Program-made: the position numbers and the translations under genes
Assembly (NCBI GenBank): GCA_003246455.1
Contig: QKAF01000023.1
Coordinates: forward strand, 1-40,693
DNA length: 40,693 nt
Direction: 5' to 3'
DNA from: Bacteroidota bacterium
GTDB taxonomy: Bacteria > Bacteroidota > Ignavibacteria > SZUA-365
Notes under the pieces: model-generated
The model's input: only the letters and a program-made list of their open reading frames with translations
What the model was told of the DNA's origin: nothing
Databases searched by the model: none
In this document: one piece after another, positions 15,153 through 34,659 of the stretch
Numbering within the stretch: position 1 is the first letter of the stretch
How the letters are laid out: every line of letters begins with the position of its first letter

Positions 15153-16124
15153 TCATAGCCAGTCATTCTCCCGATACCACGCCAGCGTCGATTCCATCCC
15201 GGCCGCGAGCGACACCGCGGGTGCGTAGCCGATGCGATCCCGCGCCTTGCCGATCGAACAGGTCCACGCCTTCTGCACCGCCTCGCGCACTTTCTGCGCG
15301 TTGAAGAAGACCTGGCGCCGCGCCAGCCGGCCGAGGGCCTCGCCGGTGTAGCCGACGAGATAGAGGACGGGTTCGGGCAGGTGGAGCACCAGCGGCTGTC
15401 TGTGCATCGCCTCCGCGATCGCGCCGCACACCCTCTCGGTGCGGTAGTTTTCCTCGCTTCCGATGAAGAACGCCTCGTTCACTGCCGCGGGATGTTCCGC
15501 CGCGCGGAGAATGCCCTGCACCACGTCTTCGACATGCACAAGGTTCACGAGATTCGACCCCGATCCCATCAGGAGTTCGAGACCGGATTTGATCATTTTG
15601 AAATACCGGTAGAGATCGCGATCCCGCGGCCCGTACACCGCGCTGGGACGAACGATGGTGACGGGCATGTGCGCGGCGGCCTCCATGACTTCGATTTCGG
15701 CCAGCATCTTGCTGCGCCCGTAGTGCGAGACCGGGTGGTAGCGGCTGTTCTCGGTCAGTTCGGCGCTTCCCAGCCGCGGACCGACCGCGGTCAGGCTGCT
15801 CACGTACACGAAGCGCCGCAGTCGTTCGCCATGCCGCCGGCAGGCACAGAGCAGATCGTGGGTAGCGACATGATTCCCGGTGTAATACTCCGTGTTGCGG
15901 CGCGCGCGCGTCAGTCCCGCGAGATGAAAGACGACGTCGACGTCGCGCAGGAGCGGCGCGAGCGCATCGCAGTCGCGGAGGTCCGCGTATACGATATCCG
16001 CACCCAGTCCGTCACCGAACATCCGGTCCCTGGCGATGATGCGCAAGTCCCAGTTTCTTCGAATGAGCGCTTCGACGAGGTGGCTTCCAATGAAGCCGGT
16101 TCCTCCGGTCACGAGGGCTTTCAT
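15153..16124 (-). CDS. NAD(P)-dependent extended SDR (epimerase/dehydratase/reductase) 2
   Basis: A 323-residue cytoplasmic extended short-chain dehydrogenase. The Rossmann motif is TGGTGFIG (6-13), with VFHLAG (65-70), the catalytic Ser pair 109-110 (YVSS) and Tyr135-x3-Lys139 (YGRSK). VRPSAVYGPRD (~157-167) is the usual extended-SDR substrate loop. The family covers sugar-nucleotide epimerases, 3beta-hydroxysteroid-dehydrogenase-like enzymes, HpnA-like proteins and bacterial ceramide reductases; the sequence alone does not decide. The start at 16124 has GGAGG upstream and overlaps the preceding gene by 4 bases (ATGA). A longer in-frame start at 16457 is rejected because it would run through the PAP2 gene. 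It is the last gene of the five-gene operon. Confidence 0.92.
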   Translation of the reverse strand: MKALVTGGTGFIGSHLVEALIRRNWDLRIIARDRMFGDGLGADIVYADLRDCDALAPLLRDVDVVFHLAGLTRARRNTEYYTGNHVATHDLLCACRRHGERLRRFVYVSSLTAVGPRLGSAELTENSRYHPVSHYGRSKMLAEIEVMEAAAHMPVTIVRPSAVYGPRDRDLYRYFKMIKSGLELLMGSGSNLVNLVHVEDVVQGILRAAEHPAAVNEAFFIGSEENYRTERVCGAIAEAMHRQPLVLHLPEPVLYLVGYTGEALGRLARRQVFFNAQKVREAVQKAWTCSIGKARDRIGYAPAVSLAAGMESTLAWYRENDWL

Positions 16125-17074
16125 ATGAACCTCCAGGCTGGAATGCGAAAGGACGGGCGCAGTCGGGTTCTGATCGGGAGAAGGCCACGCGCGTCGACGC
16201 GGGACGCGGATGGGGCGCGGCGCAGGGCGGTGGTCAGTGCGAACACCGCGATGCCGATCGCGATGCCGAGAAGGCCGTCGGAAATGTAGTGGAAGCGTCC
16301 GTATACCGTGCTCGGGAGTATGCACACGAGCATCGGCAGAAAGGCATACGCCCAGCGGCGGTGGTGACGCCAGAGGGTCAGGAGCACGACCGTGCCTGCC
16401 GCATTGTGCGGGCTCGGCAGACTGCCGCCGGGGAAATGCTGCGTGGCGCGCACCCACTCCGCGGCCATGGTGAACGGGCCGCCGGTCAGCGCCACCGAGT
16501 ACTGCCCCGGGTCATAAAAAAGCTGACTCGCGACCGGGAAGAGTACAAAGCCGGCGTCGCAGAGGAGATTCACTCCCAGCAGGGCGAGGATGTACTCGTA
16601 CACCGCGTGCTCCCCGGCGCAGCGATAGCAGATCCATGCCGTGAACGGCAGCAGCGGGATGTAGATGACGTAGGAGAACATCATCCATTCGGTGAGCGCG
16701 GGGTGCACGAAGCGTTCGAGCCAGTGCGACAGCTCGATTCCCGTGAATGTCGTTTCGAAGCGGATGATCGTGTCGTCGAACCAGCCGTCGAACAGCAGGT
16801 GCTGGACTCCGGACACGGCACCAAAAAGGAAGGAGACGAGCGCGAGTCCTCCGGCCGCGCGCACGGCGGTCCTCCACCGCTCCGGAAGACGGACGCTGAC
16901 GGCGGCGACCAGCATCACCAGGGCCAGCGCCAGCGCGCAGGAACGCAGCAGCGCGGGAGCGTCGTCGATGCACGCGGGAAATGCCAGCGCGAGGACGACG
17001 AGCAGCGTCAGCGCGGAAGCCGCGAGACGCACCGCTGTGCGGAAGGGCCGGGATGCCGGATTCCAGGGTGTCAT
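16121..17074 (-). CDS. PAP2-superfamily membrane enzyme, AUR1/inositolphosphorylceramide-synthase-like
   Basis: A 317-residue membrane protein with about eight hydrophobic helices. The PAP2 catalytic pattern is PSPH (His223 in GGSLPSPHNAAG, 217-227) followed by GRFHYISD (259-266, His262, Asp266). This spaced SxH...HxxxD pattern and the seven or so residues around it match the PAP2_3/AUR1 type, which moves phospho-headgroups between lipids or removes phosphate from lipid phosphates. The first PAP2 motif (KxxxxxxRP) is not evident, as is usual in AUR1-like members. A four-base overlap couples it to the SDR at 15153-16124; the CPBP gene ends 9 bases upstream. A role in lipid headgroup transfer is likely, but acceptor and donor are unknown. 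Confidence 0.87.
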   Translation of the reverse strand: MTPWNPASRPFRTAVRLAASALTLLVVLALAFPACIDDAPALLRSCALALALVMLVAAVSVRLPERWRTAVRAAGGLALVSFLFGAVSGVQHLLFDGWFDDTIIRFETTFTGIELSHWLERFVHPALTEWMMFSYVIYIPLLPFTAWICYRCAGEHAVYEYILALLGVNLLCDAGFVLFPVASQLFYDPGQYSVALTGGPFTMAAEWVRATQHFPGGSLPSPHNAAGTVVLLTLWRHHRRWAYAFLPMLVCILPSTVYGRFHYISDGLLGIAIGIAVFALTTALRRAPSASRVDARGLLPIRTRLRPSFRIPAWRFI

Positions 17075-17083
17075 GTCATGCCT

Positions 17084-17794
17084 CTACATCGAGACGGAAA
17101 TGGACAGATCGGTGACGACCCCGATGCCCGCATGAAGGAGCCATGGCCAGAGAATCGAACGCGTGCGAATGGCCAGCCAGCCGAATAGCAGTCCGGCCGC
17201 GATCGATGCGTACAATTCCCCGGTCGGATACCCGACGTGCCACAGCGCGGAGGGGAGCACCTGGATGCAAATGGCCGTGATGTCGCCGACAGAATCGCGG
17301 AGTCCGAAGAGCAGGAAACCGCGGAAGAAGAATTCCCAGGCGATGAAATAGAGCACCACGCGGCCCGCGGCATACGGGAGGAAGCGTGCCAGGGAATCGG
17401 CGGCGGCCTTGTCGATCGGATAGAAGGCGCGCATGTCATCCATCTGCGCGGCGGGGAGAAGGAACGCAGCAGCGATGATCGGAAGCAGGACGGCGTTTGC
17501 CGCGAGCCCGAAGCGCCAGTCACCGACCGACACCCCGAACTCCCTCAGCGGTTTTTTCCAGACGCGCCGGATGAGCACATAGGGCACCGCCCCGAACAGC
17601 ACGGCGGTGCAGAGGAAGTACAGCCAGACGCGCGCGGTTTCCGTCGTGAGAAGTCCCACCACCGGCAGGTTGTCGACTCCGCAGGCCTGCCGGTGGAGCG
17701 TGGTCAGGGTGACGCCGCAGAGAATGGCGACGGCGGAGAGCATTTCTTTTCGCTGCATCGTCGCAGCCTGGGGAAAGAGCGACAGGGCATTCAT
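17084..17794 (-). CDS. CPBP-family intramembrane protease-like protein
   Basis: A 236-residue multi-pass membrane protein of the CPBP (CAAX protease and bacteriocin-processing, ABI) family. Motif 1 reads WEFFFRG (153-159: Glu154, Arg158), where the first Glu of the classical EExxxR is Trp. Motif 2 is SALWHVGYP (His186) and motif 3 is LLHAG (His221). Glu154 with the two histidines keeps the core of the intramembrane glutamic-protease site. The start overlaps the upstream SDR by 4 bases (ATGA at 17791-17794) and 9 bases separate its stop from the PAP2 start, so it is firmly in the operon. A protease sitting between lipid enzymes is odd and may process a prenylated or membrane partner, possibly the 59-residue leader peptide. 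Confidence 0.88.
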   Translation of the reverse strand: MNALSLFPQAATMQRKEMLSAVAILCGVTLTTLHRQACGVDNLPVVGLLTTETARVWLYFLCTAVLFGAVPYVLIRRVWKKPLREFGVSVGDWRFGLAANAVLLPIIAAAFLLPAAQMDDMRAFYPIDKAAADSLARFLPYAAGRVVLYFIAWEFFFRGFLLFGLRDSVGDITAICIQVLPSALWHVGYPTGELYASIAAGLLFGWLAIRTRSILWPWLLHAGIGVVTDLSISVSM

Positions 17795-18798
17795 GACCGC
17801 TCCTCCGGGTCTTCACGGCCCGTGCGCAGCCAGCGCATCGTGGCCAGGACCGCGTCGGCAATCGGGGTCGTTTCGTAGCCGATCTCCCGCTCCGCGAGCG
17901 CGCTGCTGCAGAGCCAGTCGTCGTAGAACACATCGACCCACGCCGGCGTGATGACCGGGTTCATGATCCCGAGGCGGCCGAGTTTTTCCTGCACGACCGC
18001 CGCCCCGCGTGCCAGCGCTTTCGGTACCGGGAGCAGGCGGCGGCGCTTACCGATGGCCGCGGCGAGGATGTCGAAAAATTCGGTGAAGGTGAGATTCGCG
18101 CCGCCGAGGATATAGTGACGGCCGGGATGTCCATGCTCCATCGCATTGATGCAGCCGCGGACGACGTCGTCGACGTAGACGTAATTCCCTGCCGCCGTGC
18201 CGTCCCCGGGCAGCAGGCGATAGGTGCCGCGCAGGTACTGCCGCATGAGAATCGTCGTCGAGTTTGCCTCGGAAAGCAGGCCGGGACCGAACACCCGCGA
18301 CGGATGAACGGTCACCACGTCAAGGCCGTCGGCGATGGCGCGATCGACGACTGCTTCGCCACGGATTTTCGATTCCTCATACAGCGTGCCGCAGGGCACG
18401 GAGCGCTGTGTCTGCTCGTTGACCGGCCGTCCGTTGGAGGGACCGTACACCATGACCGTGGACGTATAGAGCACGCGCCGGACCCGCAGCGTCAACGCCG
18501 TAGTCAGTACGTTTTCGAGTACATCCCGGTTGACGCGATGCACCTCCTCCGGATAGCGCGACCAGTTTTTCGCAAACGCCGCAAGATGGTACACCACGTC
18601 GCAGCCCGACATGGCGTCGCGCATGTCGTCGGGTGAGGCCAGGTCGCCGCGGAATATCCTCACCGGGGTGTCGAGGAGCTGCGCGGTGTCGGATGTCGGC
18701 CGGCAGATGATGGAAACATTCACCCGTTTCCGCTGAAGCGCGCGGACGAGTCGGGCGCCGATGAAGCCGGTCGCGCCGGTGACCAGGGCGTTCATCAT
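17791..18798 (-). CDS. NAD(P)-dependent extended SDR (epimerase/dehydratase/reductase) 1
   Basis: A 335-residue extended SDR. The nucleotide motif is TGATGFIG (7-14), with VYHLAA (69-74), STVMVYGP (113-120) and catalytic Tyr140-x3-Lys144 (YEESK). VHPSRVFGPG is the family's substrate loop. It is a paralogue of the SDR at 15153-16124, but clearly diverged, so the two probably do different steps. Dihydroflavonol-reductase, HpnA, 3beta-HSD and ceramide-reductase types are all possible. The start MMNAL follows GGGGAGGTGC, so the first ATG (18798) is chosen. It lies 66 bases after the 59-residue peptide gene and overlaps the CPBP gene by 4 bases. Confidence 0.92.
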   Translation of the reverse strand: MMNALVTGATGFIGARLVRALQRKRVNVSIICRPTSDTAQLLDTPVRIFRGDLASPDDMRDAMSGCDVVYHLAAFAKNWSRYPEEVHRVNRDVLENVLTTALTLRVRRVLYTSTVMVYGPSNGRPVNEQTQRSVPCGTLYEESKIRGEAVVDRAIADGLDVVTVHPSRVFGPGLLSEANSTTILMRQYLRGTYRLLPGDGTAAGNYVYVDDVVRGCINAMEHGHPGRHYILGGANLTFTEFFDILAAAIGKRRRLLPVPKALARGAAVVQEKLGRLGIMNPVITPAWVDVFYDDWLCSSALAEREIGYETTPIADAVLATMRWLRTGREDPEERS

Positions 18799-18864
18799 GC
18801 ACCTCCCCGGCCCGGCATCGAGAACGGAAGGTACGGGCAGTGCTCCGGCCCGGGATGCGCGCGC

Positions 18865-19044
18865 TCATTCATGGCGCACCATCCTTTCCCTGTTTTCTTC
18901 CTGCCAGAGGAAGGCACAGGCACCGGACCGGCGTATGGTGCGGCATATCACGCAGCCTGCGCTGACGATGATCCCCAGCGAGAGGATCGCCGTGATCGCA
19001 TATGCCAGAATCGTCACGAACGAATTCGAGAAGAGGTTTTCCAT
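18865..19044 (-). CDS. 59-residue single-pass membrane peptide heading the lipid-type operon
   Basis: A small protein with one hydrophobic helix (SFVTILAYAITAILSLGIIVSAGCVI, ~8-33), followed by a basic, Cys-containing tail (CRTIRRSGACAFLWQEENRERMVRHE). The ATG at 19044 has a strong AAGGAG site 8 bases upstream, which supports real translation; an in-frame start at 19086 lacks this. It is the first gene of the minus-strand operon and 66 bases before the SDR. Three Cys near the membrane exit could be lipidated or redox-active. No family is recognised. Confidence 0.72.
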   Translation of the reverse strand: MENLFSNSFVTILAYAITAILSLGIIVSAGCVICRTIRRSGACAFLWQEENRERMVRHE

Positions 19045-27879: not shown

Positions 27880-28059
27880 CCGCAGTAGGAAATCCTGTCC
27901 TCCGGAATAGAGGTATTCACGGACGGATGGATCCCGGGGAGGGAACAGGGGAACGGACGGCGGAGACCGGCGAACCGGTGTAACGGAAAGTGCCGCGTCG
28001 TGTCCAGTGTGCATCAATCCGTTTCCGTCATTTCAGGTGCATCCACAGAGGAGGGGACC

Positions 28060-31000
28060 ATGCGTTTCTTGATTGCCGTTCTCATGACGATGTTGTCAGC
28101 CGTCTGTTTGGGACAGAGCCGCGGGGGAGCCGAGGGTACGGGCACGATGAAGAACGATCAATGGGATTTTATCAGTACCAACAGAATGCTGATGTGGGTC
28201 AGCAACAACGGGCGGCTCTCGCACAACCCGCTGACGTCCGGACCGGGGTTGATCTGGCCTGCGGGCACCGGGAAGTCTCTCGCGTATGCAGAGGGACTTG
28301 TCTACGGCGGGACCCCGTTTGGAGAAGTCCGTGTCGGTGGGGCGACCTACATCGCAGGATGGCAAGCCGGGAGCATCCTCGCTGACGGTGGCGCGGAGGA
28401 TCCGAGCGCGCCCGGGGTCCGGATCTATCGCGCGCATCGTTTCGACGCGGGATGGTGGGACACACTCGCCCAGTACAAACGGACGGTCATACTTACAGAC
28501 CTGATCAACTGGCCGGTTGCATCCGGCGCCCCGTGGACGGACGCGAATCACAACGGGGTGTATGATCCTGACACCACGGTCTGGCTCAATGGCGGGGGTG
28601 GCGATTCCCCGAATATTCCCGGCGATGAAGCGTTATGGTGCGTCAGCAACGATCTCGATTCCCGCAGGGTGCGGGATCTGTACGGAAGCACGCCGATCGG
28701 AGTGCAAATTCAAACCATGATCTGGGCATCGGCGGGACATCCGCTGCTGGACAACGCTGTGTTTCGTGAGTATACCCTGATTATCAAAGGAATCGGAATC
28801 GCGGAGAATTTTACCGTCGGTGCGTGGGAAGACGTCGACATGGGCGAACCCTTCGACGACTTGTGCGGGGTGGATACCGCCCTCGGGTTGGCGTATGCCT
28901 ACAACGGGAGAGGCGATGACGATACGTACGGCCTGCCTCCCGCGACGGGGACCCTCTGGCTGCAGACGCCTGTCGTCCCGAAGCCCGGGGCGACGGCGCG
29001 CTTCGGCACCGGTTCGCGCACGGACTATGAAAATCTCCCCCTCTCCGCATTCGTCCATTACATCGGCGGCAGCAGCACCTATCGCGATCCCCAGCTGGGG
29101 AATCCCGACGGTGCACTACAGATGATGAACAACCTCGAGGGCCGCATGCATGACGGCGGCACATTCCTCGATCCTGTCTCGGGTCAGACGACGCCGCTGC
29201 TGCTGGCCGGAGACCCGGTACTGGGGAAAGGGTGGATCGACGGAATCGTGAATCCTCCCGGTGACCGCCGCTTTCTCTCCGCCTCAGGTCCTGCGACACT
29301 CGAGCCGGGAGATACTCAGAAAGTCGTTCTGGCGCGTATCGCCGCCGAAGGAGGGAATCGCCTGCTCAGCGTCCGCGCGCTGCGCAAGGCCGCGCGGCAG
29401 GTGAAGGACATCTACCGCAACATGCCGCTCGGATCCGAGGCCCCGGTATTCTCCTCCGCCCTGGCATACGGGGTATCGCCGGGATATTACGAAGTACGGA
29501 CCACGGGCGGGCCGTTTCCCGCGGGGACAACCTCCGCCGCTGCCATCCTGCGCAATTCTTCCGGCAGGGAAATCCAGCGCGGGATGATGTTCGACGACGG
29601 CCAGCATGACGACGGGGCCGCGAACGACGGTGTGTACGGCGCGATCCTCCACGGTTCGGATCAGTCGTCCGGTGCGGATCTCTTCGTCGTCACAGAGGAT
29701 GCCGGCGGAGAGAAGGAATGGTTCGTCGAAAGCGAGATCGCGCTGCCGGGTCCCGTAACGGTGCGCTTCACTGACATCGTCCTCGACAGTCCGAAACTCG
29801 ACGGCAGGGCCCAGCCCGGCGAGTACGTTCGCCTGCGCCTGCGCATCGACAACGGGACCGCGACGGATATGGGACCGCTGCATCTGTTTTTCCGCGGCGA
29901 ACCGTCCCTGAACGTCGACCGGGTGGTTGCGCGTTACCCCGGAACCGTTCCCGCAGGCGGATCTTTCGAGCCGGAGTACGATCCGAACACGTCGGAAACC
30001 TGGATCGGTGTCGACATCCCGGCGGACGCGGCGCCCGGCAGCTATGTCATCCCGGTCACGCTGATCAGCGAACAGCACTGTCTCTGGGAGCAGGATCTGA
30101 CGATCGAGATCGATTCGCTTCCCTCCGCCACGGCGAACGGACTGCTGGCGCATGTCGAAGGCCTGGCCTCGGGTTCCCTGGGATATACGCTGCTCAATCC
30201 CGAGGCTCTCACCGACCACGATTACCGCGTGAGTATCGAGGGAGAGGATGCGGGTGCGAAGACGATGTTCGTCGAGGATGTCACCCTCGGCACGACACTG
30301 TACCGGGGCATTCCCGTCCCGAATTCCTTCGCACCCTATTCTCCCCAGATCGACGGATGGGCGGTCACGATCGGTACCGCAATAGACGAACTCGTGTACG
30401 ATGCGCAGGGACAGCGTCTCGAATCCTTCACCCACGATTACACGGCGGCATTCTCTGAGCCCTCGCGCGAGTGGTTCCGTCTCTATAACAGTGAAATCTC
30501 CATGGCCGGAGAATCCTATCTCCCGTCGCTGAGCACACAGTATGATCTCTTGCCCGTGCGCCTTGTCTTCGACCGCATGAACGGGCAGAAAGCTCCACTG
30601 TATGTGCGCGGCGCGAATCCCAACTACTCCTGTGTAGGAGTATTCGATATTCCCGTGCGAGCCTATGACATGAGCGATACGGCAAACCCGCGGCAGATCA
30701 TGCTCGCCTTCGGAGAGCAGGTGAACATGCCCTCCAACGACAGCGCCTACATGCCGACAGACAATGTCAATTCCCGGGAATTCCTCCTCGTCTTCGCCGA
30801 TGACTACCATGAGCAGCCGGATGCGAAATTCCTCGTACCGTTGAACACCAGGAATCCCACGCTGGAGCTGCTCTATCTCGTCTGGGCGCTGCGCGACAGC
30901 ACACTGCCGATGTTCGAAGACGGGGACGCGTACACCATCATGCCGCGCGTCCCGGTGAGCCGCCGCGACGTATACATCCTCGCCAGGCCGCGTCTTCTCG

Positions 31001-31311
31001 ACGTGCGCAGCGAAGCTGCGCAGCCCGAGGCGATCGCCCTGCACCCGAACTATCCGAACCCCTTCGGTCCGGGAAGCGCGGGAAGCAGCAGCGGAACGAA
31101 TATTCGCTTCGACACCCCGCATGCGGGCCATGCGCAGCTTGCGGTTTACGACATGCTCGGCCGAAGGATCATGATGCTCGTCGATCAGGAACTCCCCGCA
31201 GGCACACACACGGTGCGTCTCGACGCCGCGGGACTGCGCGGGGGAAGCTACGTCGTCGCGCTCGATGGATACGGGTCGCGGCAAACGATCCGGATCTGTG
31301 TGCTGCGCTGA
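28060..31311 (+). CDS. large T9SS-exported protein, tandem copy A
   Basis: A 1,083-residue secreted protein. A signal peptide (FLIAVLMTMLSAVCLGQ) ends near residue 19. The first ~450 residues start with DQWDFISTNRMLMWVSNNG and repeat themes such as PWTDANHNGVYDPD (calcium-like DxNxNG), GVDTALGLAYAYNG and LQTPVVPKPG. A FDDGQHDDGAANDGVYGA segment near residues 509-530 matches the choice-of-anchor-X-type motif. A beta-sandwich follows, and from ~990 (ALHPNYPNPFGPG) the T9SS type A sorting domain. The real start is 28060, with a GAGGAGGGG site; an in-frame start at 28000 lacks one. It is followed after 105 bases by a paralogue. No catalytic motif is seen; a surface adhesin or scaffold role is a guess. 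Confidence 0.92.
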   Translation: MRFLIAVLMTMLSAVCLGQSRGGAEGTGTMKNDQWDFISTNRMLMWVSNNGRLSHNPLTSGPGLIWPAGTGKSLAYAEGLVYGGTPFGEVRVGGATYIAGWQAGSILADGGAEDPSAPGVRIYRAHRFDAGWWDTLAQYKRTVILTDLINWPVASGAPWTDANHNGVYDPDTTVWLNGGGGDSPNIPGDEALWCVSNDLDSRRVRDLYGSTPIGVQIQTMIWASAGHPLLDNAVFREYTLIIKGIGIAENFTVGAWEDVDMGEPFDDLCGVDTALGLAYAYNGRGDDDTYGLPPATGTLWLQTPVVPKPGATARFGTGSRTDYENLPLSAFVHYIGGSSTYRDPQLGNPDGALQMMNNLEGRMHDGGTFLDPVSGQTTPLLLAGDPVLGKGWIDGIVNPPGDRRFLSASGPATLEPGDTQKVVLARIAAEGGNRLLSVRALRKAARQVKDIYRNMPLGSEAPVFSSALAYGVSPGYYEVRTTGGPFPAGTTSAAAILRNSSGREIQRGMMFDDGQHDDGAANDGVYGAILHGSDQSSGADLFVVTEDAGGEKEWFVESEIALPGPVTVRFTDIVLDSPKLDGRAQPGEYVRLRLRIDNGTATDMGPLHLFFRGEPSLNVDRVVARYPGTVPAGGSFEPEYDPNTSETWIGVDIPADAAPGSYVIPVTLISEQHCLWEQDLTIEIDSLPSATANGLLAHVEGLASGSLGYTLLNPEALTDHDYRVSIEGEDAGAKTMFVEDVTLGTTLYRGIPVPNSFAPYSPQIDGWAVTIGTAIDELVYDAQGQRLESFTHDYTAAFSEPSREWFRLYNSEISMAGESYLPSLSTQYDLLPVRLVFDRMNGQKAPLYVRGANPNYSCVGVFDIPVRAYDMSDTANPRQIMLAFGEQVNMPSNDSAYMPTDNVNSREFLLVFADDYHEQPDAKFLVPLNTRNPTLELLYLVWALRDSTLPMFEDGDAYTIMPRVPVSRRDVYILARPRLLDVRSEAAQPEAIALHPNYPNPFGPGSAGSSSGTNIRFDTPHAGHAQLAVYDMLGRRIMMLVDQELPAGTHTVRLDAAGLRGGSYVVALDGYGSRQTIRICVLR

Positions 31312-31416
31312 TCCGGAACCGCGGTGCGGACGAACAAGGACTTCGCCCTCGTTCGCCCTGGGTTCGGCAGCTGATGAATGGCATTCCATATTACAAGCAA
31401 GGACAAGGAGGTTGGC

Positions 31417-34400
31417 ATGCGTTTTTTGTTGTTCGGAATGATGCTGCTATCGGCTGTATGGACCGGACAGGCGCAGGGGACAAAGGGCGGGGACGAAACC
31501 GCCGCCGGGGTCAACGATCAATATGATTTCATCGACGTGAACCGGATGCTGATGTGGATCAGCAACAACGGGTCGACATCGCACGATCCCGGGACCGATG
31601 GGAACGGATGCGAATGGCCGCGAGGGAGCGCGAAATTTGTTGTGTACGAGGAAGGGCTCGTGATCGGCGGTATGGTATCAGGTGAACCCCGTGTCGGCGG
31701 ATCGACCTATCGGCATGGTCTTCATGCCGGGCATATCATGGCGGACGGTTCCGCATCCGATCCGGGAGACCCGACGTCGCGCATATTCAAGGCGCATCGC
31801 TTCGACGCCGCCTGGTGGGACGGACTCTCCCAGGCCGAACAGGATCGCTTCCTTGCCGATCTGCGCGAATGGCCGGTGATGCGCGGCGCTCCATGGGTAG
31901 ATGCGAATGCGAACGGAATCTATGATCCGGATCCCGTGTCGTGGGCGGTGGGCGGCCCGAGCGATACGCCGTTTCTGCCGGGGGACGAAGTGCTCTGGTT
32001 TGTAAGCAATGACCTCGATCCCGCCCGCACTGCGAGTCTGTATGGCAGTTCTCCCGTCGGACTGGAGGTGCATACGATGGTCTGGGCAAGTACGGGACAC
32101 CCGCTGCTCGAGAACGTCGTGTTTCGGGAATATACCATCATCAACAAGGGCGTCCCCACCCTCGAAGATACGTATCTGGGACTTTGGGAGGACGTGGATT
32201 TAGGCAGTCCTTTCGACGATCTCGTGGGCGTGGACACCACGCTCGGACTGCAGTACGACTACAACGGAACGACGAATGACGGGGTTTATGGAATCCCTCC
32301 TGCCACGGGCGTCGTATGGCTGCAGACGCCGGTCGTTCCCGCTGCAGGCCGGACAGCACGCTTCGGTCTTGGTAGCAGGGACGACTACCGCAACCTGCCG
32401 CTGTCGGCTTTCGCGTTCTACGTCAATTCGAGTCCGGTGTACCAGGACCCCGATCTCGGGAATGCGCTGGGGAGCCGCCAGATGCTGAACCAGCTTTCCG
32501 GTCGGACCTATGACGGCAGCTCCTATGTCGATCCGGTTGCCGGAGGATCGACGACAATGCCGCTCGCGGGCGATCCCGTGCTCCATCATGGTTGGATCGA
32601 CGGCATCGTCGATCCCGCAGGGGACCGTCGCGGCATGTCAAGCAGCGGCATGTTCACCCTCGCTCCGGGCGATACGCAGAAAGTCGTTGTCGCCAGGGTG
32701 GTCGCCGAAGGACAGAACCATCTCCTCAGCGTGCGCGCCTTGCGCAACGCCGCGCGGCAGCTGCACGATATCTATCGCAACCTCCCGGTGGGTGCGACGG
32801 CGCCTGTATTCGCGTCGACCGTCCGGTATCCGACGTCGGATTCCTACGCGGTGCATGTGAGCGGCGGACCCTTCCCCGCCGGGATGACGCAGGTCGAGGG
32901 CGTGCTCCGCGGTGTCGGCGACATTGAAATCCAGCGCGTCACGCTGTTCGACGACGGCACGCATGGCGACGGCGCCCCGGCCGACGGCGTGTACGGCGGG
33001 ACGCTGTCCGGTACATCCCTGCCCAGCGGGGCCGATCTGCTTGTCGTCACCGGTGACGGAAGTCTGAACCAGGAATGGTTCGTCGAAGGCGAAATCGCGC
33101 TTCCCGGTGCGGTGAGCCTGTCGGTCAGCGAGGTCTCCTCCGACAGCCGCAATTACGACGGCCACGTCAATCCCGGCGAAAACGTGCGGCTGCGTCTGCG
33201 CATCGATAACCACAGCGGGACGGGACTGGGTCCCTGGCATCTGTTCCTCCGCGACGATATCTCGCTGCTTGCCGATCAGACGGAGTTTCGCTACGACGTC
33301 ATGACTGGCGGCGGCAGAAGCTTTGAACCTTCATATGATGCGAAGGACGGAAACAGCTATCTCGGCCTCACGATCCCGGACGACATGCCGCCCGGAACCG
33401 TTCTCCGGATCCCGATCACGATCATCTCCGAAAACCGGTGCCTGTGGAATGACACGCTCACGGTCGCAGTGGAAGAATTTGCCGCCCCGCCGATCGAAGG
33501 ACTGCTGGCGCACGTACAGGGCAAGGCCAGTGGTTCGCTGGGCTATCGCGTCGTTGATCGCGCGGCGCTCACCGACCATGATTACCGTGTCAGCGTCGAG
33601 GGCGAGGATTTCGGGACAAAGACGCTGGTGGTCGAGGATCTGACCCTCGGGACTACCCTGTTCACCGGGCTTCCGATGCCGGACCGCCTCGCGCACGACG
33701 GGAGTACCTTCGACGGGTGGAGATTGAATTCCGGAACGGCCATGGACGAACTGTATTATGATCAGGCCGGCGAGATTCATCCGAGTTTCGAACCGACGGT
33801 GACCGGGGAGTTCTCGGAACCGTCGCGCGCCTGGTTCGCGCCCTATGCAGGATTTCTTCTCACGGGAGAAGAATTTTTCGGCTCGACCGTCAGGCTCTAC
33901 GACCAGGTACCGGTGCGGCTGGTCTTCGACAGGACGAACGGTCAGCAGGCGATGGCCTGGCTGAGGGGAGTTTTTCCCAATTATGCCTACCAGGGGTATT
34001 ATCCGATCCCCGTCCGCGCCTATGATATCAGCGACAGCACGCAGCCGCGGCAGCTGATGGTCGGTTTTGTCGAGCAGGTTGATTCTCCCGAGCGGGACAA
34101 TACGTGGCGGCCGTCAGTGTTGGGAGGCCGGGAATACCTTTTTGTTTTTGCAGACGATTATTCCGCCACCGTCGATCCGAAGTTTCAGAATCCGCTGCTT
34201 GCCAACTCTGAGGGACTCGATGTGCTCTATGGGCTGTGGGCTGTGAAGTCATCACCGGAAGTGGAGTATCAGGACGGCGATTCGTACACGATCACGCCGA
34301 ATATCCCCGTCAGCAACCGTGATGTCTACATTTTCCCGAAGCCCCGTCTGCTCGGCATCGAAAGTGCGCCCACGCATCCCGCCGCGATCGCGCTGCATCC

Positions 34401-34659
34401 CGCGTATCCGAATCCGGTCGGGTCCGGCGCGGCGTCGGCATCGGCAGAGATCCGTTTCGACATCCCGCGTGAAGGCAATGCGCGGCTCTCCGTGTTTGAC
34501 ATGCTCGGACGCTGTGTTGCCGTGCTCGTCGACCAGGCGCTTCCGGCGGGAACGCACACGGTGCGTCTCGACGCGGCCGGTCTGCGTGCGGGAACGTATG
34601 TTGTCGCGCTGGATGTGCGGGGAGAAAGGGTGACCAGGCTTCTGTCGGTTGTCCGATGA
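31417..34659 (+). CDS. large T9SS-exported protein, tandem copy B
   Basis: A 1,080-residue secreted protein, paralogous to the preceding gene along its whole length: DQYDFIDVNRMLMWISNNG, PWVDANANGIYDPD, GVDTTLGLQYDYNG and FDDGTHGDGAPADGVYGG correspond one for one, and the C-terminal sorting domain begins ALHPAYPNPVGSG (~991). A signal peptide (LLFGMMLLSAVWTGQAQ) ends near residue 19. The start at 31417 has AAGGAGG 7 bases upstream; the in-frame ATG at 31378 lacks a site. No convincing promoter lies in the 105-base gap, so it may be co-transcribed with copy A. It ends before a strong bidirectional terminator. Confidence 0.92.
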   Translation: MRFLLFGMMLLSAVWTGQAQGTKGGDETAAGVNDQYDFIDVNRMLMWISNNGSTSHDPGTDGNGCEWPRGSAKFVVYEEGLVIGGMVSGEPRVGGSTYRHGLHAGHIMADGSASDPGDPTSRIFKAHRFDAAWWDGLSQAEQDRFLADLREWPVMRGAPWVDANANGIYDPDPVSWAVGGPSDTPFLPGDEVLWFVSNDLDPARTASLYGSSPVGLEVHTMVWASTGHPLLENVVFREYTIINKGVPTLEDTYLGLWEDVDLGSPFDDLVGVDTTLGLQYDYNGTTNDGVYGIPPATGVVWLQTPVVPAAGRTARFGLGSRDDYRNLPLSAFAFYVNSSPVYQDPDLGNALGSRQMLNQLSGRTYDGSSYVDPVAGGSTTMPLAGDPVLHHGWIDGIVDPAGDRRGMSSSGMFTLAPGDTQKVVVARVVAEGQNHLLSVRALRNAARQLHDIYRNLPVGATAPVFASTVRYPTSDSYAVHVSGGPFPAGMTQVEGVLRGVGDIEIQRVTLFDDGTHGDGAPADGVYGGTLSGTSLPSGADLLVVTGDGSLNQEWFVEGEIALPGAVSLSVSEVSSDSRNYDGHVNPGENVRLRLRIDNHSGTGLGPWHLFLRDDISLLADQTEFRYDVMTGGGRSFEPSYDAKDGNSYLGLTIPDDMPPGTVLRIPITIISENRCLWNDTLTVAVEEFAAPPIEGLLAHVQGKASGSLGYRVVDRAALTDHDYRVSVEGEDFGTKTLVVEDLTLGTTLFTGLPMPDRLAHDGSTFDGWRLNSGTAMDELYYDQAGEIHPSFEPTVTGEFSEPSRAWFAPYAGFLLTGEEFFGSTVRLYDQVPVRLVFDRTNGQQAMAWLRGVFPNYAYQGYYPIPVRAYDISDSTQPRQLMVGFVEQVDSPERDNTWRPSVLGGREYLFVFADDYSATVDPKFQNPLLANSEGLDVLYGLWAVKSSPEVEYQDGDSYTITPNIPVSNRDVYIFPKPRLLGIESAPTHPAAIALHPAYPNPVGSGAASASAEIRFDIPREGNARLSVFDMLGRCVAVLVDQALPAGTHTVRLDAAGLRAGTYVVALDVRGERVTRLLSVVR

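Follow-up and report, generated by a model that had tools for sequence, protein, structure and literature searches.

What is the function of an operon that joins two dehydrogenase-like enzymes, a CPBP-family membrane protein, a PAP2 protein and a very small membrane peptide? We addressed this question for positions 15153-19044 of a contig from an Ignavibacteria genome (QKAF01000023.1, assembly GCA_003246455.1; genome G000 below), of which all 40,693 nucleotides were analyzed and are referred to as the window. The original prediction, made from the sequence alone, was that these genes encode a lipid- or glycolipid-modifying pathway with built-in proteolytic control. The lipid part of this claim is supported by the conserved gene order and by the separation of one of the dehydrogenases from sugar-nucleotide epimerases, and we are highly confident that the locus is a lipid operon; a link to sphingolipids is probable. 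The full assignment, namely, a cassette for sphingolipid (ceramide) tailoring and export in which the CPBP protein is a non-proteolytic partner, is plausible and falls a little short of probable.

All five minus-strand open reading frames (ORFs) of the original prediction are present at the coordinates it gave, and the junction spacing it described follows from these coordinates, with 4-base overlaps between SDR1 and CPBP and between PAP2 and SDR2 (SDR, short-chain dehydrogenase/reductase) and a gap of 9 bases from CPBP to PAP2. The interval between the peptide gene and SDR1 is occupied as well, by a 25-codon ORF whose overlaps with the peptide gene and with SDR1 measure 8 and 4 bases, respectively. 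In the direction of transcription, the operon reads:

18865-19044, minus strand: small peptide gene, 59 amino acids (aa), single transmembrane segment, the first gene of the operon, with an AAGGAG ribosome site upstream
18795-18872, minus strand: DUF3108 remnant ORF, 25 codons, in frame, its start and end matching the intact gene of genome G003
17791-18798, minus strand: SDR1, an extended SDR, 335 aa, PF01370 at 143.9 bits
17084-17794, minus strand: CPBP membrane protein (Rce1/SpdC fold), 236 aa, PF02517 at 46.3 bits
16121-17074, minus strand: PAP2_3 (AUR1-like) lipid phosphotransferase or phosphatase, 317 aa, PF14378 at 49.4 bits
15153-16124, minus strand: SDR2, a CerR-like extended SDR, 323 aa, grouping with SDRs linked to serine palmitoyltransferase (SPT) and with NDUFA9

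The order peptide-DUF3108-SDR1-CPBP-PAP2-SDR2 is shared by relatives (loci L035-L038), and the complete set from peptide to SDR2 is also found in G031 (L039), which belongs to another family of the class. Because the gene order is conserved in relatives, the arrangement is not a product of chance. Two genomes (G016 and G044) carry SDR1-CPBP-PAP2 without SDR2, and the contigs of G001, G003 and G009 stop within or directly after PAP2. Scanning an alignment of the CPBP protein against ~85,000 species genomes yielded 80 CPBP loci, distributed over Bacteroidota, Ignavibacteria, Calditrichota, Aminicenantes, Chloroflexota, Planctomycetota, Acidobacteriota, Nitrospirota and others. Architecture A is SDR1-CPBP-PAP2 with DUF3108 and SDR2 optional; architecture B is PAP2-CPBP-SDR, the SDR coming from a clade other than SDR1; and architecture C, found chiefly in Ignavibacteriales, is DUF3108-PAP2-SDR1-CPBP-SDR2. 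Related families keep the order SDR1-CPBP-PAP2(-SDR2), and other phyla have permuted forms of it. The most constant gene pair is SDR1 and CPBP, SDR1 accompanying CPBP throughout architectures A and C; the 27 SDR1 loci include PAP2 in 23 cases and DUF3108 in 11.

The CPBP protein retains the fold of its family, with two catalytic positions changed. Its match to PF02517 (Rce1-like) lies well above the cut-off of 22.4 bits, and its AlphaFold2 model (pLDDT 96.2) has SpdC (Z 15.7) and MmRce1 (Z 13.4) as the only clear solved relatives, a sequence search having recovered no solved relative. With the motif register set by alignment with a canonical CPBP protein from the same genome, W153, E154, R158, H186, P190, E193, H221 and G225 are invariant in 56 aligned sequences. 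In all 56, the EExxxR motif is replaced by WExxxR(G), placing Trp (W153) at the position of MmRce1 Glu140, and the HxxxN motif keeps its His (H221) and carries Gly (G225) at the position of the oxyanion residue Asn231. For MmRce1, MrtX and DidK, positions of the Glu140/Asn231 type are reported to be essential or to belong to the oxyanion hole, and Staphylococcus aureus SpdC (SagB-SpdC) and LnsB (LnsA-LnsB), in which the catalytic set is incomplete, are reported to be non-proteolytic enzyme partners. With Trp in place of the first catalytic Glu and Gly in place of the oxyanion Asn in every aligned member, proteolytic control is unlikely, and this element of the original prediction is not supported. 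Judging from the sequence, we are confident that the protein is not a classical protease, and the best inference as to its role is that of a non-proteolytic partner.

Proteolytic control of the lipid enzymes by CPBP, in which the 59-residue peptide would be the substrate or organizer, would be in keeping with the adjacency and coupling of the genes in one operon and with the PF02517 match, but it conflicts with the loss of the catalytic positions across the whole family and with the range of the peptide, which is limited to close relatives and one further family, whereas the CPBP family is spread over many phyla. We consider such control very unlikely, and the suggested substrate role of the peptide finds no support. 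The peptide is nevertheless very likely the product of a real gene. Homologues of 42-65 residues with one hydrophobic segment occupy the equivalent position in eight relatives, SG is present near the C-terminus in all of them (an SGxG-type motif, as in the C-terminus SGPGSFMWHD), and dN/dS against the nearest homologue is ~0.44. Pfam and NCBIfam searches returned no family match for the peptide, and a scan of the regions upstream of the cassettes in less related phyla did not detect it.

The invariance of E154, R158, H186, E193 and H221 across the 56 sequences exceeds what a mere scaffold would need, and the CAAX homologue DidK is reported to be an esterase. Both points would fit a remodelled, active hydrolase or an acyl- or phosphotransferase that uses these five residues on a lipid or lipidated protein, but Trp and Gly occupy the Glu140 and Asn231 positions in every sequence, residues of this set being reported as essential in MmRce1 and MrtX, and we regard an enzyme of this kind as unlikely. 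The non-proteolytic partner, therefore, is the role adopted for CPBP in what follows. Separately, a second WE-type CPBP gene is located on contig C16 in the genome of the window (L045, 9512-10339), adjoining a pdxJ-looking gene and a gene for a secreted PorV-like protein; the same arrangement is found in G007 (L046, 9758-10576), and related CPBP proteins occur across the class. No CPBP relatives were found on plasmids. Within the open-licence literature, we found no paper tying CPBP or CAAX proteins to sphingolipids.

Both SDRs match the Epimerase/3Beta_HSD families of Pfam, and a tree of 97 rows separates them. No named CerR is included in this tree, in which SPT-SDR neighborhoods containing bacterial ceramide synthase (bCerS) from Aureispira and Rubrobacter serve as references instead, and relations inside the SDR2/NDUFA9 group are poorly resolved. 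SDR1 forms one clade of 30 rows (support 100/97), the type-B SDRs form another of 37 rows (100/100), and a branch with support 100/99 parts SDR2, the SPT-linked SDRs that are not paired with CPBP, and two NDUFA9 sequences from SDR1, the type-B SDRs and sugar epimerases, and an assignment of SDR2 as a sugar-nucleotide epimerase was accordingly rejected. In Rubrobacter, SPT, bCerS and an SDR are adjacent, and this SDR falls on the SDR2 side of the tree. Caulobacter CerR has been reported as a homologue of NDUFA9 (PMC11087976), so that SDR2, grouping with NDUFA9 and SPT-linked SDRs, is a CerR-type candidate. Two alphaproteobacterial SPT-like plasmid matches were considered as a CerR reference and rejected, since they belong to polyketide-type clusters and not to a ceramide operon. 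HpnA, another identity raised for the SDRs, was discarded along with a hopanoid assignment, because SDR1 (217.9 bits) and SDR2 (142 bits) both score under the curated cut-off of 367.65 (NCBIfam TIGR03466).

An AUR1-type assignment of the PAP2 protein agrees with its PF14378 match and with the retention of the catalytic residues H223, H262 and D266; P220, S221, H223, H262, Y263 and D266, which make up the PSxH and HYxxD motifs, are invariant in 8 sequences. The protein has no match to NCBIfam NF052609. An inositol head group was rejected because myo-inositol-phosphate synthase was not found in G000 or in the single-contig genome G007, and for the same reason a head group of the ethanolamine or glycerol type appears likelier.

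The linkage of CPBP-family loci to SPT and bCerS narrows the lipid to ceramide or another sphingolipid. Among the 36 type-B loci, PAP2 is present in 24, a bCerS-like gene in 15 and SPT in 10, and SPT and/or a bCerS-like gene in 15/36; with an assumed 1% chance of occurrence within 8 kb, the binomial probability of the last figure is 5e-21, although relatedness of the loci makes the true figure less extreme. The SPT neighbors score 613.8 and 515.7 bits against SerpalmtaseCFB (NCBIfam), under the cut-off of 640, and thus are close relatives rather than formal members of this family; the second neighbor is a GNAT-type protein, which we take to be bCerS because it lies next to SPT and bears a weak similarity to GNAT proteins. 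For architecture A, the tie to ceramide genes comes from the planctomycete locus L075, where SPT, bCerS, an SDR2-like SDR, SDR1, CPBP and PAP2 occur together, the window-type cassette thereby being joined with SPT and bCerS. The genome of the window encodes both ceramide genes on a contig other than that of the operon:

C112:2352-3536: SPT
C112:3674-4783: bCerS

Beyond the class of the window, the 50 cassette genomes from other collections contain bCerS in 43 cases and SPT above 470 bits in 33. SPT was detected in 4/5 CPBP-bearing genomes of Chloroflexota (binomial 3.5e-4) and in 3/3 of Acidobacteriota/Aminicenantes, against background rates, at the same threshold and with the center genome omitted, of about 28/300 (~9%) in Chloroflexota, 31/246 (13%) in the phylum to which G104 belongs and 51/246 (21%) in that of G062; these genome-level figures are rough, as most of the genomes are metagenome-assembled. 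By the CPBP profile, a strong CPBP was present in 1/301 Chloroflexota genomes, a frequency too low for a two-by-two test.

Several observations weigh against the sphingolipid assignment. Direct linkage of architecture A to SPT or bCerS is seen at one locus, L075; in G000, SDR2 is not beside these genes, an SDR2-like gene adjoining SPT/bCerS only in other genomes, such as that of L075. Within the class, SPT and bCerS are each present in 60/61 genomes searched, so that the association between cassette and ceramide genes is untestable there, and clear SPT is missing from some cassette genomes (e.g., G080 and G089), several of these assemblies being small or incomplete. SDR1 does not resemble CerR, and the catalytic core of PAP2 gives a weak alignment with AUR1 (E 0.099). 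Outside the cassette, WE-type CPBPs are encoded at L004 in the genome of the window and in several Chloroflexota genomes, and hence the WE substitution alone is no sign of a sphingolipid function.

These points leave room for an operon that modifies a non-sphingolipid (a hopanoid, a glycolipid or another isoprenoid or acyl lipid), with ceramide genes co-occurring in lipid-rich diderms. Such an operon would suit the position of SDR1, closest to HpnA-like proteins and other reductases of lipids or phenolics, and the many SPT-bearing relatives that lack cassette A. Against it, CPBP-family genes are physically linked to SPT and bCerS in type-B loci and at L075, SDR2 groups with SPT-linked SDRs, and both SDRs have sub-threshold HpnA scores; we judge it rather unlikely. 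The sphingolipid-linked cassette accordingly remains our preferred interpretation.

The export component of this interpretation involves DUF3108. The ORF at 18795-18872 is the in-frame leftover of a DUF3108 gene that is intact in G003, a genome of the same genus, where it has 295 codons (~290 aa); the remnant preserves the codons at both ends of the intact gene. G001 has no DUF3108 gene at the equivalent place, the sites compared among the window, G001 and G003 being 18795-18872 in the window, ~1931-2042 in L041 and 6116-7000 in L047. Intact DUF3108 (PF11306) lies between the peptide gene and SDR1 in G003, G004, G005, G007, G008, G009, G016 and G031. One distant DUF3108 paralogue is encoded elsewhere in the genome of the window (C107), and paralogues of this kind are also present in relatives without the operon, e.g., G006 and G010. 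The DUF3108 model (pLDDT 77.7) matches the folds of DUF1849 (6ntr, Z 15.9), LolA (Z ~8-9), LolB, RseB and LprG; by sequence, no convincing solved relative was found. The predicted LolA-like fold is consistent with a periplasmic lipid carrier, a shared fold being no proof of function.

From the observed gene content, gene order, motifs, predicted folds and linkage, we infer the reactions, the head group, the contacts between partners and the roles of CPBP and the peptide as follows. SPT and bCerS, encoded elsewhere in the genome, would make ceramide or keto-ceramide. Like SpdC or LnsB, CPBP would serve in the membrane as a scaffold or as a partner that holds the lipid and offers it to SDR1 and PAP2, a probable role in light of its Rce1/SpdC fold and the loss of two catalytic positions. 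SDR2 would probably perform a CerR-type reduction of a 3-keto-sphingolipid, as suggested by its grouping with SPT-linked, NDUFA9-like SDRs, and PAP2, on the strength of its AUR1-type catalytic motifs, would probably transfer a phospho-head group from a phospholipid onto a ceramide-type lipid. In most close relatives, DUF3108 would carry the product across the periplasm, the window retaining the 25-codon remnant only, and the small membrane peptide would probably serve as an accessory subunit.

The survey of ceramide genes also brought up unusual forms of SPT. Several genomes of the class encode SPT and a bCerS-like N-acyltransferase in a single frame of ~800-916 residues; six of these natural fusions were checked (L224-L229, in genomes G027, G045, G033, G017, G060 and G036). 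Whether acylation precedes or follows reduction when bacteria make ceramide is debated, and the fusions favor acylation of 3-ketosphinganine ahead of reduction. In the planctomycetes G089 (C440), G105 (C101) and G107 (C235), which have bCerS-like genes but no ordinary SPT, SPT/AOKS-like domains lie within frames of ~1155-1188 residues, possibly multidomain substitutes for SPT.

Around the operon, a DinB-like gene (19155 to ~19700, minus strand) lies directly upstream on the same strand. Such a gene is also found upstream of the operon in G001 and G003, and none was detected near the operon in the remaining compared loci, so that it is probably not part of the operon. Farther along the window, two adjacent plus-strand ORFs at 28000-31311 (1103 aa) and 31378-34659 (1093 aa) have similar signal-like starts and are possibly tandem secreted paralogues.

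For Caulobacter, it has been reported that no ceramide flippase or transporter was identified and that the electron source for periplasmic CerR is unclear (PMC11087976). The cassette offers candidates for the steps of ceramide reduction, head-group addition and transport to the outer membrane in its CerR-like SDR and second SDR, its AUR1-like transferase, the carrier with a LolA fold and the CPBP pseudoprotease. It also suggests that one branch of the large CPBP family, which is poorly understood, has a lipid role that does not involve proteolysis. A bolder proposal, which we consider doubtful, is that the WExxxR CPBPs of this cassette are a membrane component, so far unrecognized, of sphingolipid synthesis in bacteria, which binds ceramide intermediates or translocates them through the inner membrane and passes them to an SDR and an AUR1-like PAP2; if true, these proteins would be candidates for the missing ceramide translocase or an enzyme platform.

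Among known systems, the Spt-bCerS-CerR pathway of Caulobacter (PMC11087976, PMC11324152) resembles the present one in that SDR2 falls on the CerR/NDUFA9 side and SPT and bCerS are present in the genome, but the operon in the window lacks SPT and bCerS, and SDR1, CPBP, PAP2, the peptide and, in relatives, DUF3108 are absent from the described pathway. AUR1 and the Bacteroides phosphoinositol dihydroceramide synthase share PF14378 and the PSxH and HYxxD motifs with the PAP2 protein, whose core aligns weakly with that of AUR1; it differs in having no NF052609 match, no inositol-phosphate synthase found in its genome and other operon partners. MrtX and MrtA (myxosortase/archaeomyxosortase) have the CPBP fold in common with the window protein, but the match to MrtA, at 73.1 bits, is under the 200-bit cut-off (NCBIfam NF040590), and the EExxxR and HxxxN motifs of MrtX are not conserved. 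SpdC and LnsB are alike in the CPBP fold, in the incomplete catalytic set and in being encoded to work with another enzyme, whereas the CPBP protein of the window is partnered with lipid enzymes of the SDR and PAP2 types and has its own invariant WExxxRG/E193/G225 signature. Measured against these systems, we rate the locus as an undescribed, widely conserved, sphingolipid-associated combination of known enzyme families, in which the surprise is the CPBP pseudoprotease.

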